Made by a program: the position numbers and the translations under genes
Shown here: positions 17,147-55,690 of the stretch, one piece after another
Layout: each line of letters begins with the position of its first letter
How positions within the stretch are numbered: the stretch's first letter is position 1
From: Tetracentron sinense
Lineage: Eukaryota; Streptophyta; Magnoliopsida; Trochodendrales; Trochodendraceae
Reading direction: 5' to 3'
NCBI GenBank assembly: GCA_015143295.1
Contig: CM026560.1
Location: 1,676,501 to 1,740,500 of the forward strand
DNA length: 64,000 nt
Notes under the pieces: model-generated
What the model saw: only the letters and a program-made list of their open reading frames with translations
The model's database searches: none
Told to the model about the DNA's origin: nothing

Positions 17147-19433
17147 TTGTAATGACCCCAAAATCCTACAAGGCTAAAATAGGACTCTGGAATCATCACA
17201 TTTCCTTAACCTGCTTAAAATCCATACATACAAGGCGTACCAACACGAGTCTCCAAAAATGAGGATACTAAAATTTCGATATATAAAATCAAGTCATCCT
17301 ACTCAAGTCTCTACTCAACATAACTACCCACAATAAAACAAATAGTCTAATACCCAACTGTAAAGTAATCCAATGAGCAACATCATCTAAAAGTCTTACA
17401 AATCTCTTAAACAAAACAAAACATGAACTAGTAGGTGTAACCATCCAAGCCTCTGACTCCCTCATCGGAAGGCTCACCTTCTCCTCCTTCCTCGACGTAT
17501 GCCTCCTTAATCCACAGCTCCGCCGTGTGCTCTAGCTCTAATCCTGCCAAGACAAAAGTCTGGCTGAGTACAAAAGTACTCGGTATATATAAAATCCAAC
17601 CAACAACATAGTATACCTGTACTTAGTTAGAATCATATCCAATAGCATAATAACATAATCAAAGTGCAGAAGAACATGTGCTTATATGCATCATATCATC
17701 ACCTTGACTCGTGTACTTGTAAGACTTAGAAGACAACATACTTATGAGATGCTTATGAGACTACATGCTTGTGAGATGCTTATGCTTATGCACTTATTCA
17801 GATCATACACTTATGTGACATGGCGCTCTTGGAGGATACGGACCATGCCTATGCAATTACTTAATTTACATACCGTTCTTGAAGGATACGAACCATGTCA
17901 TGCTTATTCAGAATGTCATACATATGTCATGCTTATGCTTATGAGTCTTGAGCAGCTTATTAAGAACATGGACTTATTCAGATCTCTCATTGGGCTTATT
18001 CAGAATGACAGGCGTATGCAATGCTTATGCTTGTGATCCACATGTGTGACTTGTGAGACTTTTATCTTAACATACACGTGCGTTTGTGCATAAATGTTGC
18101 AATTAACATTTGAGTTGGTAATCATTTAGATTCCGATCTCCCACCATGGAAACTCCACTATGATGTCCCATACCATATAGTTAGAGAATTCCCGGTTTGA
18201 AAGATTTTCCCTTAAATTCTTACCTTCCCGAATATCAATTACCATGCAAGTAATTAGGCATAACTTAACAAACAATCACATATATATTTCTTATCATGAT
18301 TCTTAGCATAGTTCATAGTCTATTTCCTATAATTCCATAGAATTAAATGAATATTTATCCTCTCAAGCATTTTCACAAATACCTTGGGTACGTACTTTAT
18401 GAATACTATGCCCTTTCAACTTTTCAAAATTTCATCACACAATAATCCATCCACACAACTTAAATATAATCCACATTCATCCCATCTTCTATAGTATTTC
18501 TCATCCTCCATACATTTCATCCATATTAATAAACCATATTTCCATCCATAAGCTTATTTCATACAAAATTGGGGAAAAATATATCTAATCTCTATTTCTA
18601 TCATTTCTATCATATTAACATTCACAAAACATTATAATAGAGTTGATTTGGATAGTATATCGACCTTAGGGATCCTTCCCTTGGATCCAAATCGCTCCCA
18701 AGATGATTTGGGGAAGCTTTGAGGAAGATCCCCAAGCTCTCCTTGCAATCTCCTTCTTCTCCAAGCAATCTCTCCCTCAAAACCCTAGGTTTTCTCTCTT
18801 TCCTTGCCAAATTAGGTTAGAAATAGGTAGAATACTCTAATACCTTGAAATATGACCTCTATTTATAGCCCCAAGGGTTGAGAGCCAAAAGACCTAAAAA
18901 TCCTTAATGAAATTCTACAAAAACACGAAAGACCGATCGATTAGTATTTATGACCGAGCGATCAGTGCCCAACCGAGTAATCAGTGTTTTTGACCGAGCA
19001 ATCGGTTGAAAGCACCTCCTCTGGAAAAATTTCCCATACAAATTAGGTAACCAGTCGATAGCTACCGATCAATCGGTTGTGGACCGATCGATCGCTAGTT
19101 TGGACCGAGCGATCGGTTGTGAACCGAGCGATCCCTGGCGATCATTGCTCTGCAGATTTTTGATCCATTATACTGTTTTGGCCATAACTTTTGACTCGTT
19201 CGTCGGATTTTGACGATTTAACTTGCGTTGGATTCGTCTTTCGAAAATGAACATTTCTGGCATTTTAGAATTTTATTTTATTTTTGGACCAAATTGTCCC
19301 CAAGGTTGACTGATCTGCAAATGGAGTTTAGAAACTCGGATTTTCAATAAACCTGACTTCGGAATTCCAACGGTTAATTCAAGGAAAAGATATTAAGGTT
19401 TTAATACAAGACAAAAATATTCGGGTTGCTACA
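17147..19433 (-). mobile_element. Solo LTR (long-LTR family A, copy 1)
   Basis: 2,287 bp with TG...CA ends (plus strand TGTAATGACC ... GGTTGCTACA), flanked by an exact 5-bp duplication TCACT (17142-17146, 19434-19438), inside leader repeat U2. No internal domains, so a solo LTR. Minus-strand TATAAATAG at about 18864 marks its own promoter. Positions 19190-19250 match the reverse complement of 46975-47045 in copy 3. It is rich in CCGAGCGATCGG-type words at 18930-19140. Fossil; family probably Ty3/gypsy by LTR length (inferred). Confidence 0.85.
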
Positions 19434-45994: not shown

Positions 45995-47094
45995 AATAAG
46001 TATTATGTAATAAAATATAGTAGTGTGTACGAGTATAGGATAACAATGTGTGTATATAAGTATTATATGCTTTATATTAACAATAAAAATATAGATAAAA
46101 TGTATTTTATATATATAGGGAAGGGATCTGTCGACATATGAAAAAGAACATGTAAGTTCACATATGCTTACAATCGATGGATCTCCCAATCTAACGGCCA
46201 CAATCATGCACCATTTTATATCTACAAGGACATTTAAGGAAATTTAATATTTTTTACAAGATTATCTCTATCTTCAGTTTCCTAAAGAAAGAAGAACACA
46301 TTCTCCTCTCTCTCCCTTTGGCATTCTCCATCTTCATCGCCTCTCTCTCTAGCTGACGGTTCTTTCTAGCACCCTTTTATATTCCGGTTGATTTCAACTT
46401 CTTCTCCTGCGTCCTCTCTTGTGCTGACTGTAATGGTTATAGATAACTAGGAAAATTCCTTGGAGTGAAAGACATCTGGTGATCTGAGCTTTCGGTCTTC
46501 ACGTCTGAAGATCTTCCGGTTTCATAGCTCGTCGTTCCCAATTTCAAAGAAATTTGAAATTCGATGGGTTTTTGAAATTTTCCAGCAAATGATTACCTAT
46601 TTAAGCTGCTTGAGAAAAAGACCAGTACATTCACCATGAGGCCAAGGTATAATTGGTTCAACATATTTAGGGATCCACAATCATAAGCTCAACCTCCACA
46701 ACAGGTTCAATGGTGATGGAGGTAATTTACTTCACCACTTCAAGGGAACTAGTGACTGGTGAGATCAATCACTCGCTTGTGTACACGGAGGTCAAATCTA
46801 TCCCGTGTTGGTTCCTGGCAATCAAATAAAAAGGAAACAATGATATCAGATCATTGCATTTGTAGCACCCCGAAACTTTTTATATCTAATGAACGACGTC
46901 GTATAGCCAATTGGCCTTTCACGTAGTCCAATGAATAAATAAAGAAGAATTGGAAGATTCTAAAATGCCAAAAATGTTCTCATTCGAAAGACGAATCCAA
47001 CGCAAGTTGAATCGTCAAAATCGGACGAACGAGTCAAAAGTTATGGCCAAAATATCAAAGAGGAAAAATCTGGAAATTTCTGTCAGGATTACGA

Positions 47095-47280
47095 ATGATC
47101 GTACAGACCCTACGAACGATCGTAGGTGAGGCTACGATCGATCGTAGAAATATACGATCGATCGTAGAATTTTAGAAATAGGCAAAACTGTCTGTAATGT
47201 TTACGATCGATCGTAGGAAACTACAAGCGATCGTAGAAGTTTACGATCGATCGTAGATATGTTATGATCGATCATAGGTC
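47095..47280 (+). repeat. CGATCGATCG palindrome array upstream of LTR TATA box
   Basis: About eight palindromic TACGATCGATCGTAG-type words in 185 bp (some imperfect, such as CTACAAGCGATCGTAG), ending 50 bp before the LTR TATAAATAG. Confidence 0.88.
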
Positions 47281-48314
47281 GCGAGCCCAGATTTTTATTT
47301 TGGGATTTTTAGGGTTTTTGCTCTTTGCCTATAAATAGGGCTCCCATATGAGGGTTTTTTGGCTCATCCTAAACCTAGAGAGACTAAGAGAAATTGAGAG
47401 AGAAGGGAGAGAGGAGATTGGGGATTCAAGTGGGAGTTTTGATTATAGAAGATGAGTAGATCAAGGTTGATCTTCCCAAATCAAGCAAGGGATTCCTCGA
47501 TTTTCAAGGAGGTGTTCTTCCTCAAGCTTGGAGCATCTCCTTCAAGGTTGGATCCTTCTACATCAAGAGGGTTTTTACAAACAAGGGTTTTCTTCAAGAC
47601 CAAGCTTTGATCTTCAAGGTTAGTAAACCCTTTCTAGTTAACCTAGTAATAACCTAGATCCTAACTTAGGTTTTCAAGCTTTTCAATATTGAGATTTTGT
47701 AGGATTATTCCCAAATTCCAAACTAAGCATGTTTTCTTAAAGTGTATGGATTATTAAGCATGATTGAGATGTAATAGGTTAAGTAAACATGCCTTATGCC
47801 ATGTATGCCTAATGTAGGATGCTTATGACCATGATTTCCATTTTTATGATTTTTCAAGTATAACTATGATGCTTTTGAGTTGTCCCATGATTTAAGTAAT
47901 GCCTTAGATCAATGTACACAAAATAAATGCACACCAAGATGTTTGTCAAAATGCATAGCAAGAAAAATATGAAATTAATGATTATATAAGGTTGCATGCT
48001 AAGTGTTTGACAAAATGCATGAATGAGAATTTAAGGAAATTAAAGAAGATTATTAAAGCATGATTTATGTAGTTTATTAAAAGTGATAATTTTAGATCAA
48101 TTGCCTTACATGCTTGTTTAAATTCCAACTTGACTATAAAAAGAATTTAAATGCAATATGTGTCCCTTGAATCACTTGTGATAGTATGATTGCCACGAAT
48201 TACCACCCACACCATGCACGCATACATGAACCAAACTCTTCAAGTATAAATATACACATAATAAATAAATAAGAACAAGCCAATAAAAGAATTAAGAAAT
48301 GTAAAACATGGGAG

Positions 48315-48845
48315 GATGTTAGTGTACTAAGATCAGGTACGGGCACTAACATCTATTCCCAGCAAGTATGAAAGGATACTAGTGTACTAAGACATATACG
48401 AGCACTAGTATCTGTTTCCAAGACATGAATAATATGAAAGTATGCTAGTGTACTAAGACCAGGTACGGGCACTAGTGTATGTTTCCAAGGCAAGCATGAA
48501 AGGGTGTTAATGTACTAACACCAGGTACGGGCATTAACATATGTTTCCAACAAGTATGAGATGATACTAGTATACTAAGACCAAGTACGGGTACTAGTAT
48601 CTATCTCAAAGCAAGAATAAAGAAATATGAAAGGGTGATAATGTACTAAGATCAGGTATGGGCATTATCATCTATTCCCATGCAAGTAAGTACAAGAATA
48701 CTAGTGTCTTCCGTTCCACTATAGTCTGAGCACTAGTCATGTCAAGATATAAGGCTAATGTGTTCCGTTCCATTATAGTCCGAGCATTAGTCAAGCACGA
48801 CAAGAAGCTAGTATGACCGTCCAAGTCATAGTTCGGGTACTAGTT
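48315..48845 (+). repeat. Array of nine stem-loops with covarying stems
   Basis: Repeat units of about 60 bp. Six units form a 7-10 bp stem around an 18-19 nt loop of the type TACTAAGACCAGGTACGGG. Stem pairs include GATGTTAGTG/CACTAACATC (48315-48324/48344-48353), GATACTAGTG/CACTAGTATC (48375/48403), TGTTAATG/CATTAACA (48505/48532), GATACTAGTA/TACTAGTATC (48563/48592) and TGATAATG/CATTATCA (48636/48663). Three further units (48700, 48755, 48808) use a 24-nt loop with CCGT(T)CCA...ATAGT..G. Stems differ, pairing is kept. Confidence 0.88.
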
Positions 48846-50205
48846 AAATAAGACAAACAAGTATATAAGAAGACATGTATGACTCTCACAACATAAGAAT
48901 AACCTCATAAGATATGTAAGGTAACCACAAGATGCATGAGATGTATAAGGAACTCACGATGTAATGAAAAACATATTGGGTAAAAGCATGAATGTAAAGC
49001 ACGATTAAATATGAGATGTTCAAGATTTTATTTTGTTATTTCATTCTAGCTTCCGCACTCTGATTATATAAATGTGATGATGAACAGTATTACGCATGTT
49101 ATGATATCGTTATTACTATTGTTAGCTAGTAGCTTGTACTCACTGAGTATTCCATGCTCAGCCGTACTTTTATGTCGGTAGGTACACTATACGAAATATG
49201 TGCACCAGTCCTTGGGATTGAGGCAGCTCAGGGAGAGCAGGAGATTACTTGGATTGTTAGCCAGACGTTAGGGGTTGACTTGTGACCCTACGGTTGGGTT
49301 GAGTATAAGAGACATGTATTTTAGGATTTTCTTTTGGGGATTTTCATGTAGGCTTGAGTTCGTCAAGCATTGGACTCTTTTTTACTTATTGTAATTTTTA
49401 TTAAGTCGTTGGTTTATGTAACACTTGGAAGTACATTTATGTTAAAGAAATTTTCCGGATCACTATTTGGAATGCCTTATATACTATTTGCAAGTTAGTT
49501 TTAAGTATAAGTCACGTCGCCAAAGTATCCTAGCTCCTAGGGGTATTTTGGGGTGTTACAACATTTTATTTATTTACATGTTCATAGCTGCTTAACAATG
49601 AGTTATTAAACCATATACTTCAATAATCAATCAACAATAGATTCAAGTTGCTTACCTGTTGCAACTAAACCAAAATCTACAAAATGTTGTGCAATACATA
49701 TAATCTATGTTGATTTTAGAGGATACTATGAAGAGAGCATACTCATTTCTGGAAATGTATATACCATACAGGCAAAGTGCTAAATCTTAGGCAAGATAGA
49801 CTCATCCTTCACTCTAAAAAAGACATAAATTATTTGCCGAAAATCTCAAAAATTCGCCAGATTCCAAAAGCTTTGAAACAGGGAACAACTTTGAAACCAG
49901 ATATCATCAGATGTCTTTCACTTCGAGGATTTTCCTTAGTTGTCCATAACCATTCTAGTCGGCACGAGAGAGGACACCGGAGAGAGAGTGGAATCCAACG
50001 GAGAGAGAGGATGCCAGAGAAAAAGAGAAAGAGAGAGTCTGTCTCCCAAGGAAGGAGAAACGGTTTTGCAATTTTTAAATTTCCCAAAGTATCCTTCTAT
50101 ACATAAAAACGAGGTGTATTGATGATCATTAGATCCTTAAATCCAATGGTGGTGTGCGCGTGTGAACATACGTGTTTTATCTCATATGTCTCCCGATCCC
50201 TTCCC

Positions 50206-54838: not shown

Positions 54839-55690
54839 AATTAATGAAAGTATTAAGGAAACTAAGATAATAATGTACTCACGAAATTTGCAGAACAACA
54901 AAATAATGAAAAAGAATGGAAATCCGAGCCCTATGTATCACAGTTTCCTTAAGACAAATTTACTCCCTCAGTACTCAAGGTTGATGAGTAATCGTCTCCC
55001 AAGATAGAACGGATTACAGTTAAGAAGAAGTAGTACTCCAATCTTCAACACTCAGCAAGCTCGACCAATGTTTGTACTCGAACATCAATGCAAGGAAAGA
55101 GAGAGAGAGATTTTTGAAGATATGATTCTTTCATTCATATGATGAATGGATGTCTAATTAATAGACTTCCTTGTGTCTAATTCGAACTAAGGTGGCTGTT
55201 CGAAAGAGGCACAAAAACGGACTGAAAAAACAGTTTTTCGGAGGTTTGAAACACCAACGGACACGATTTGCGATCGATCGTCCAAACGGTACGATCGATC
55301 GATCGTCACCGTCAAGACGATCGATCGCACTCTATACAGAAAGTAACCCACCATTCTGTTCCAGTCGCGATCGATTGTCGATGTCCGGACGATCGATCGT
55401 ACTCTATACAGAAAATTACCCACCATTCTGTTCCAGTTGCAATCGATCGTCCCCGTCAACGATCGACCGCCCAAACACAGATCCATACCCGTACCCAAAT
55501 CCAAATATGGGTCGCAATTCGGGTCAAAATTTCTTGCCCACACATTGCCTATTTGTCGGGTCAATCCAGAAACTGTTTGATCAAGTCTCCTCACACCAGA
55601 GATCCAAAACTAGCTGAAAGGGAGATGGTGGGTTCCTCTTCTTTCCTTTTGTTCCACTTTTCTTTCTTGTTTTGTTCCAAACATCTCTTG
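54839..55690 (-). other. Possible copia-like LTR remnant with GATCGATCG array
   Basis: 55265-55465 is rich in CGATCGATCGT words, including two copies of ACTCTATACAGAAA..ACCCACC. Surroundings on the minus strand look like an LTR leader. No ends fixed. The two open frames here translate the repeat and have no protein family signal. Confidence 0.4.

Follow-up and report, generated by a model that had tools for sequence, protein, structure and literature searches.

A tandem array of RNA hairpins with co-changing stem arms in the LTR of a Ty3/gypsy-type element

What keeps the two arms of a stem complementary when the stem itself differs from one repeat to the next? The question is raised by a window of 64,000 nucleotides (the whole stretch of DNA analysed; G000:C10:1676501-1740500 of the 1.16-Gb assembly, which appears plant-like from its elements), in which an initial annotation had described nine hairpins with covarying stems inside a solo LTR and had offered two explanations, one being that selection maintained the RNA fold during the life of the element, the other that template switching or gene conversion had rewritten both arms. 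We found all nine units, at 48310-48845, with the stems that had been quoted, and a strict Watson-Crick scan also recovers five of the nine (Table 1). Their host has the marks of a solo LTR, with TG...CA termini, a short target-site duplication on both sides (one mismatch) and no internal region. The two loop classes reported there hold: counted in the same way, six units have loops of 18-19 nt and three have loops of 24 nt; with the closing U.G pair counted, the loops are 17 nt (16 in unit 2) and 22 nt. The unit said to tolerate G-U pairs is hairpin 3, of type T3.

Perfect stems with loops of 14-26 nt are concentrated in the array. Between 48300 and 48860 there are 10 of at least 6 bp, 5 of at least 8 bp and 3 of at least 10 bp, compared with means of 1.76, 0.12 and 0.00 (maxima 7, 2 and 1) in 300 dinucleotide shuffles. 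The fold energy of the sense RNA has a z of -4.16, with 0 of 100 shuffles equally good, and that of the antisense RNA a z of -1.25, with 15 of 100 equally good. Class A units have a 16-bp stem, made up of a 12-bp upper stem with a closing U.G and a foot G.U pair, a 1-nt bulge on the 3' side, and a 4-bp lower stem that is GGAA/TTCC, GAAA/TTTC or GAGA/TCTC depending on type; the stem encloses a conserved 17-nt loop, ACTAAGACCAGGTACGG. The lower stem, which varies between units yet stays paired, goes beyond the earlier description, as do the U.G and G.U pairs at the top and foot of the upper stem. In classes B and C the loop is 22 nt long and the stems are shorter than in class A. Elsewhere in the window, short tandem palindromes on GATCGATCG are found at 47089-47277, 19064-19133 and 55298-55451, the first two of them within the 5' portions of the two solo LTRs, and AGAGACATGTATTTT, at 49308-49322, scores highest in conservation (0.985) among the 15-nt windows of the LTR.

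Table 1. Features of the window discussed in the text (positions counted from the first letter of the window).
Feature	Position	Strand	Basis
Second solo LTR, 2,286 bp	17148-19433	-	perfect target-site duplication tcact on both sides
Two hairpins in second solo LTR, loop words CGTATCCTCCAAGA and CGTATCCTTCAAGA	17819-17898	-	
Target-site duplication, left, gcatt	46856-46860	.	sequence reading
Solo LTR, 2,700 bp, Ty3/gypsy-type element	46861-49560	+	termini TGTAGCACCCC (at 46861) and GTTACA (ending at 49560); target-site duplication
TATA-box-like CTATAAATAG, candidate promoter (inferred)	47329-47338	+	
Conserved candidate 5' splice site AAG/GTTAGTA, cut after 47618	47616-47630	+	per-column counts, 37 loci
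Hairpin 1, type T1: 4-bp lower stem, bulge, 12-bp upper stem, 17-nt loop at 48326-48342	48310-48359	+	
Hairpin 2, type T2, 16-nt loop in window copy	48370-48418	+	
Hairpin 3, type T3, G.U pairs maintain pairing	48436-48485	+	
Hairpin 4, type T4	48498-48547	+	
Hairpin 5, type T5	48558-48607	+	
Hairpin 6, type T6	48629-48678	+	
Hairpin 7, class B, 22-nt loop	48700-48737	+	
Hairpin 8, class B, 22-nt loop	48753-48792	+	
Hairpin 9, class C; TATGAC/GTCATA complement within loop	48806-48845	+	by eye (loop complement)
Candidate 3' splice site TTTGCAG/G, cut 49493/49494	49473-49495	+	most of 56 aligned loci
Target-site duplication, right, acatt, one mismatch to left copy	49561-49565	.	sequence reading

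The array recurs across the genome. A search for the class A loop, with arms left free, two anchor letters and up to 3 mismatches, returned 9,287 matches, compared with 157 for the reversed pattern, and querying the genome with the array DNA yielded 2,573 candidates, 40 of which were scored. We scanned 100 loci for units; 81 contained class A units and 19 did not. Removal of L033, which is the same place as L003, left 485 units in 80 arrays, and L001, L002 and L063-L065 are excluded from all unit counts. Types T1, T1c and T2-T6 account for 461 of the 485 units, with 24 untyped. The most frequent order is T1 T2 T3 T4 T5 T6 (28 arrays), followed by the same with T1c after T1 (10 arrays). For alignment, we chose 62 units from 108 listed sense-oriented units (of the 461), keeping the types balanced. 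Some arrays have expanded: L061 carries 16 class A units, and G000:C20:29809406-29809592 has three identical 35-letter units with a 76-bp spacing. A near-palindrome, CATATCC...GGATATG, imperfect in some cases, lies ~60-85 nt before the first loop in 12 of 15 copies inspected by eye (e.g. L010, L039 and L055), and is absent from the window copy. Conservation of hairpins was clearly higher than that of spacers in two of four comparisons, slightly higher in one and no higher in one. We dropped a comparison in which the array appeared more conserved than its flanks, because the copies had been ranked by the array, and a flank-selected set shows less of a difference.

Copies with adjoining internal sequence point to the kind of element involved. 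In one copy (L063), TGGTATCAGAGC follows the homologous LTR, and in another (L064), the gag frame matches Retrotrans_gag (1e-14), Ty3_capsid (1.6e-11) and zf-CCHC (1.5e-4). Judged by this Ty3-type gag and by the primer site beside the LTR, the element is of Ty3/gypsy type. No long pol-like frame was apparent by eye in the stop-to-stop frames of L063-L065 or of L106, a piece downstream of another gag. A gag query gave 20,660 candidates, of which 111 were scored, and at least 112 matches. Several gag matches have open frames of ~400 residues; the stop-free 402-residue frames of copies such as G000:C5:25719491 and C4:19700715 suggest that these may be young insertions. We compared the strands of 30 of the 112 gag matches with those of 51 array or LTR-flank places, and array or LTR and gag were on the same strand in all 16 neighbouring pairs, around 12 gag copies, although 3 of the 16 are LTR-flank hits without class A units, and two are ~5 kb apart and may belong to another element. 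Array pairs flank gag on both sides at C3:25.87 Mb, C3:28.50 Mb and C9:22.68 Mb. Identity within LTR pairs is 94.3%, 94.4% and 92.9% over 2,194, 2,212 and 915 aligned columns. The LTR carrying these RNA hairpins belongs to a Ty3/gypsy-type element in which the few copies examined show gag and no evident pol.

We looked for signals that would place the array within a transcript. The TATA-like word CTATAAATAG, with up to 1 mismatch allowed, is present in 4 of the 31 copies that extend far enough upstream, compared with a control value of 3, and TATAAA is found in the 80 nt before the first loop in 0 of 65 copies that begin with T1. A poly(A) signal upstream of the array was considered as the R/U5 border and rejected; AATAAA at 48260-48287 in the window copy is poorly shared, occurring in 13 of 65 T1-starting copies in the nearest 40-nt window and in 4 of 65 in the next. 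The candidate donor window, AAGGTTAGTAAACCC, which we take to be a good 5' splice site by consensus, has a conservation of 0.978 (rank 4 of 1,532 15-nt windows) and lies outside every query that selected the loci. At the candidate acceptor, the AG is retained as A in 51 and G in 48 of 56 loci, conservation is moderate (0.899; rank 561 of 1,532), and the window copy reads TTTGCAAG, the site having been lost. The donor and the weaker acceptor around the array suggest a leader intron. With a candidate donor upstream and a candidate acceptor downstream, the array would be intronic and hence confined to unspliced RNA.

We propose that the structured array probably has some cis-acting role in the RNA of the element. 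There is moderate support for an array that is transcribed and located in a 5' leader intron, such that only unspliced genomic RNA would carry it. The repeated identical loops could then be putative binding sites labelling genomic RNA, in the simplest case for Gag during packaging, since identical loops set in tandem would be well matched to a multimeric binder, and a signal within an intron would single out unspliced RNA. We put forward only tentatively the idea that the loops may mark genomic RNA, whether for packaging or for genomic-RNA recognition. In its most specific form, a gag-only Ty3-type element would carry a multi-copy packaging signal of six to nine near-identical-loop hairpins in the leader intron of its LTR, through which multimerising Gag would pick only unspliced genomic RNA; we regard the conjunction of all these parts as unlikely.

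The same landmarks could be read in terms of splicing itself. Hairpins in a leader intron could slow splicing or premature cleavage and so spare unspliced genomic RNA, with the loops serving as decoy U1 sites, for which the negative regulator of splicing of Rous sarcoma virus offers an analogy. The class A loop contains CAGGUACGG, which is near the 5' splice-site consensus, the loop word is largely retained in the 461 typed units, and the conserved candidate donor and the candidate acceptor lie on either side of the array, as this explanation would have them. However, the GU of CAGGUACGG, retained in 440 and 450 of 461 units, is no more conserved than other loop positions such as A13 (457), and the class B and C loop words lack CAGGUACGG. 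We think it unlikely that an effect on splicing accounts for the array.

A role on the side of the host is rather improbable. The hairpins could feed small-RNA production and silencing, as proposed for the palindromes of Sirevirus LTRs, with conservation reflecting conflict, and a maize survey describes a small-RNA excess on those palindromes (PMC10760457). Selection on the element would, however, favour loss of the fold, conservation of the loop would not be needed for silencing, and Rfam 15 gave no match above gathering score in the window. In addition, stems of 16 bp are short for Dicer-like processing.

The preferred reading, a fold maintained in the RNA of the element, requires that the two arms change together by more than common descent. 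RNAalifold recovered the same 16 pairs from the 62 chosen units, bulge included, with compensatory (both-side) changes at 9 of the 16. Among the 59 distinct rows of this set, 97.8% of 943 cells are paired, compared with 88.3% for shuffled arms and at most 53.1% for slid partners; among 100 listed of the 9,287 loop matches, 672 of 700 free stem cells are paired (96%), compared with 83% for shuffled arms (maximum 86%). Two of five covariation measures on the 62-unit set fail against shuffles: double-change cells number 113, compared with 35.0 in shuffles (0 of 500 as high), whereas neither the number of pairs showing any double change (67 of 500 shuffles as high) nor that of further pair types (63 of 500) exceeds the shuffles. 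Because the units are related, we constructed nulls in which the tree is preserved and the changes are relocated on it. For the 376 distinct units, the paired fraction is 0.958, compared with a mean of 0.861 and a maximum of 0.948 under the tree-preserving null, and there are 10 extra Watson-Crick types, compared with a mean of 3.9 and a maximum of 8 (0 of 500 as high in each case). Under a second null the corresponding maxima are 0.888 and 9, again with 0 of 500 as high for each. At the level of types, the majority pair is Watson-Crick or G.U in 105 of 105 cases (7 types by pairs 2-16), with zero A.C. The arms of these units do not vary independently of each other; independent variation would have counted against the initial annotation.

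A few ancestral hairpins could nevertheless have been duplicated and then diverged, such that their arms only look coordinated. The seven unit types hold most of the covariation, and pair 6 carries an amplified A.C mismatch. In an approximate version of the R-scape test that the initial annotation had recommended, a G-test with a tree null, no pair was significant (best E 0.17), a consequence of the small number of deep unit types; stem pairs took ranks 1, 2, 3, 5, 8, 10 and 11 of 1,275. Set against relatedness alone, the types differ compatibly on both arms at nine pairs, the two tree-keeping nulls break pairing far more than is observed, and the changes are asymmetric between strands, as described below. 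We judge relatedness alone to be improbable: pairing is kept beyond relatedness, though the deep events are few.

RNA tolerates G.U pairs but not A.C pairs, and a change of strand swaps the two, so the ratio of G.U to A.C tells which strand was selected. Stem changes private to one array comprise 20 G.U and 20 A.C, and those found in six or more arrays comprise 12 G.U and 4 A.C. A comparison of rare with common changes (33:35 and 19:10) goes in the right direction and is not significant (p 0.18). We also placed changes on a tree of 72 arrays, leaving out 8 of the 80 that have under four types. On internal branches, Watson-Crick pairs in stems changed to G.U 35 times and to A.C 18 times, compared with 35:43 at unpaired sites (p 0.021); at the tips, the counts were 88:69 in stems and 93:90 at unpaired sites (p 0.38). 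Internal and tip stems did not differ significantly from each other (p 0.26).

Exact whole-genome counts were made for three pairs that were picked after their variation had been seen, and each count may stem from few events: G.T 124 and A.C 3 at pair 8, G.T 63 and A.C 0 at pair 5 and, to the contrary, T.G 1 and C.A 14 at pair 6. For the 106 class B units, the counts were GT 11 and AC 0 at pair 4, and GT 37 and AC 3 at pair 8. Of 376 distinct class A units, 346 fold more stably as the sense strand and 26 as the antisense; for class B the counts are 66 and 25 of 93, class C shows little difference (38 and 28 of 67), and whole arrays favour the sense strand in 66 of 66 cases, although part of this advantage follows from the universal U.G and G.U pairs. 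The whole-unit G.U:A.C ratio was dropped as a test, its value being 5.70 compared with 5.09 under one tree null (155 of 500 as high; 22 of 500 under the other). Changes that were inherited are asymmetric between strands and private changes are not, a pattern expected if selection acted on the sense RNA before insertion and then stopped. We infer that the fold was probably selected as sense RNA during replication of the element, with selection ending once a copy had inserted. Of the two original explanations, the data support selection for the RNA fold in the living element, through a paired fraction above the tree null and through the inherited strand asymmetry.

This asymmetry also bears on the idea that the palindrome was selected as DNA, for example as a transcription-factor site or a cruciform. 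The cis-regulatory regions of elements are often arrays of repeats, sometimes palindromic (PMC10760457), and the TATA and poly(A) comparisons described above are compatible with more than one promoter position. By contrast, mismatches and folding are both strand-asymmetric, and the conserved 17-nt loop is non-palindromic, making selection at the DNA level highly improbable. We give very little credence to palindrome correction, in which one arm serves as the template for the other during template switching or gene conversion: it would produce coordinated arms, and fully paired arms are indeed the commonest forms, but such copying would erase wobbles and the bulge, whereas U.G at pair 1 (433 of 461), G.U at pair 12 (411 of 461) and the bulge persist, the loops are not palindromic, and the predicted equality of G.U and A.C is contradicted by ratios of 124:3 and 63:0, though the third pair stands at 1:14.

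The initial annotation had also pointed to one similar unit in another solo LTR of the window. A hairpin is present there; it is not a single unit, as there are two copies of the loop word, and its loop is unrelated in sequence to those of the array. BLAST (E 1e-3) finds one 122-column stretch only that is shared by the two LTRs. The loop pattern of this second family has 8,749 matches (up to 2 mismatches), compared with 4,096 for the control, so many of the matches are due to chance; 89 of 100 listed rows are members and 11 are not. Among the 89 member rows, outer pair o5 is GT in 29, AC in 2, AT in 46 and GC in 6, and there is no asymmetry at in4 (TG 6, CA 5) or o4 (TG 2, CA 3). Inner pairs 1-3, with a fixed 5' side, and o6, the end letter, are set by the search pattern and were not used. 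The strand signal in the second family rests mainly on one pair. The presence of loop hairpins in a second LTR family indicates that conserved-loop hairpins are not limited to one family.

We found no covarying hairpin arrays in Ty3-type LTRs among the listed titles and abstract openings of the open literature that we searched; a report on enod40 RNA is not directly relevant to the array (PMC10578108). In the maize survey, Ty3-type LTRs are without an obvious peak of structure (PMC10760457), and the mean fold energy here, -0.269 kcal/mol per nt, is too weak to pass the cut-off used there, -40 per 110 nt. The present array suggests that Ty3-type LTRs can carry conserved structured RNA. To our knowledge, the cis-acting RNA signals of plant LTR retrotransposons are mostly undefined. 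Thousands of copies in one genome amount to a built-in compensatory-mutation experiment, with dead copies as the unselected control, such that what marks such RNA for packaging becomes directly testable.

Among known systems, Sirevirus LTRs reportedly contain clusters of palindromes (Bousios and colleagues, 2016). Like the array here, these Ty1/copia clusters consist of short repeats able to form hairpins, in the LTRs of a plant retrotransposon present in abundance; unlike it, they repeat one palindrome with a 3-nt centre (PMC10760457), whereas the present stems vary between units and enclose a long conserved loop. Sireviruses belong to the Copia superfamily, whereas the element here has a Ty3-type gag and does not class as Copia, and the Sirevirus motif CACCGGACNNNGTCCGGTG occurs 0 times in the window (up to 3 mismatches) and in 0 of 106 loci as an exact match. 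Conservation in the long R regions of retroviral LTRs has been linked to stem-loops (PMC3601003); these resemble the array in that both stem arms are conserved, there inside a long R region, and differ from it in being retroviral and in not forming a tandem array.

In its LTRs, primer site, gag domain and lack of an evident pol in the copies examined, the element resembles terminal-repeat retrotransposons with GAG (TR-GAG); the internal sequence behind this comparison comprises three internal regions together with one stretch that follows a gag, in which pol was looked for by eye. The definition of TR-GAG does not include hairpin arrays. A functional parallel to the proposed role would be retroviral Psi, the packaging and dimerization stem-loops, which lie downstream of the splice donor and are hence absent from spliced RNA. 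Like Psi, the candidate here would be located in the genomic RNA leader, ahead of gag and possibly past a splice donor; unlike Psi, it comprises six to nine tandem hairpins whose loops are nearly identical, placed within the LTR and before the primer site. If the packaging reading is true, the array would be a repeat-based Psi that arose independently of retroviruses, with a second design, built on loop CGTATCCTCCAAGA, in another LTR family.
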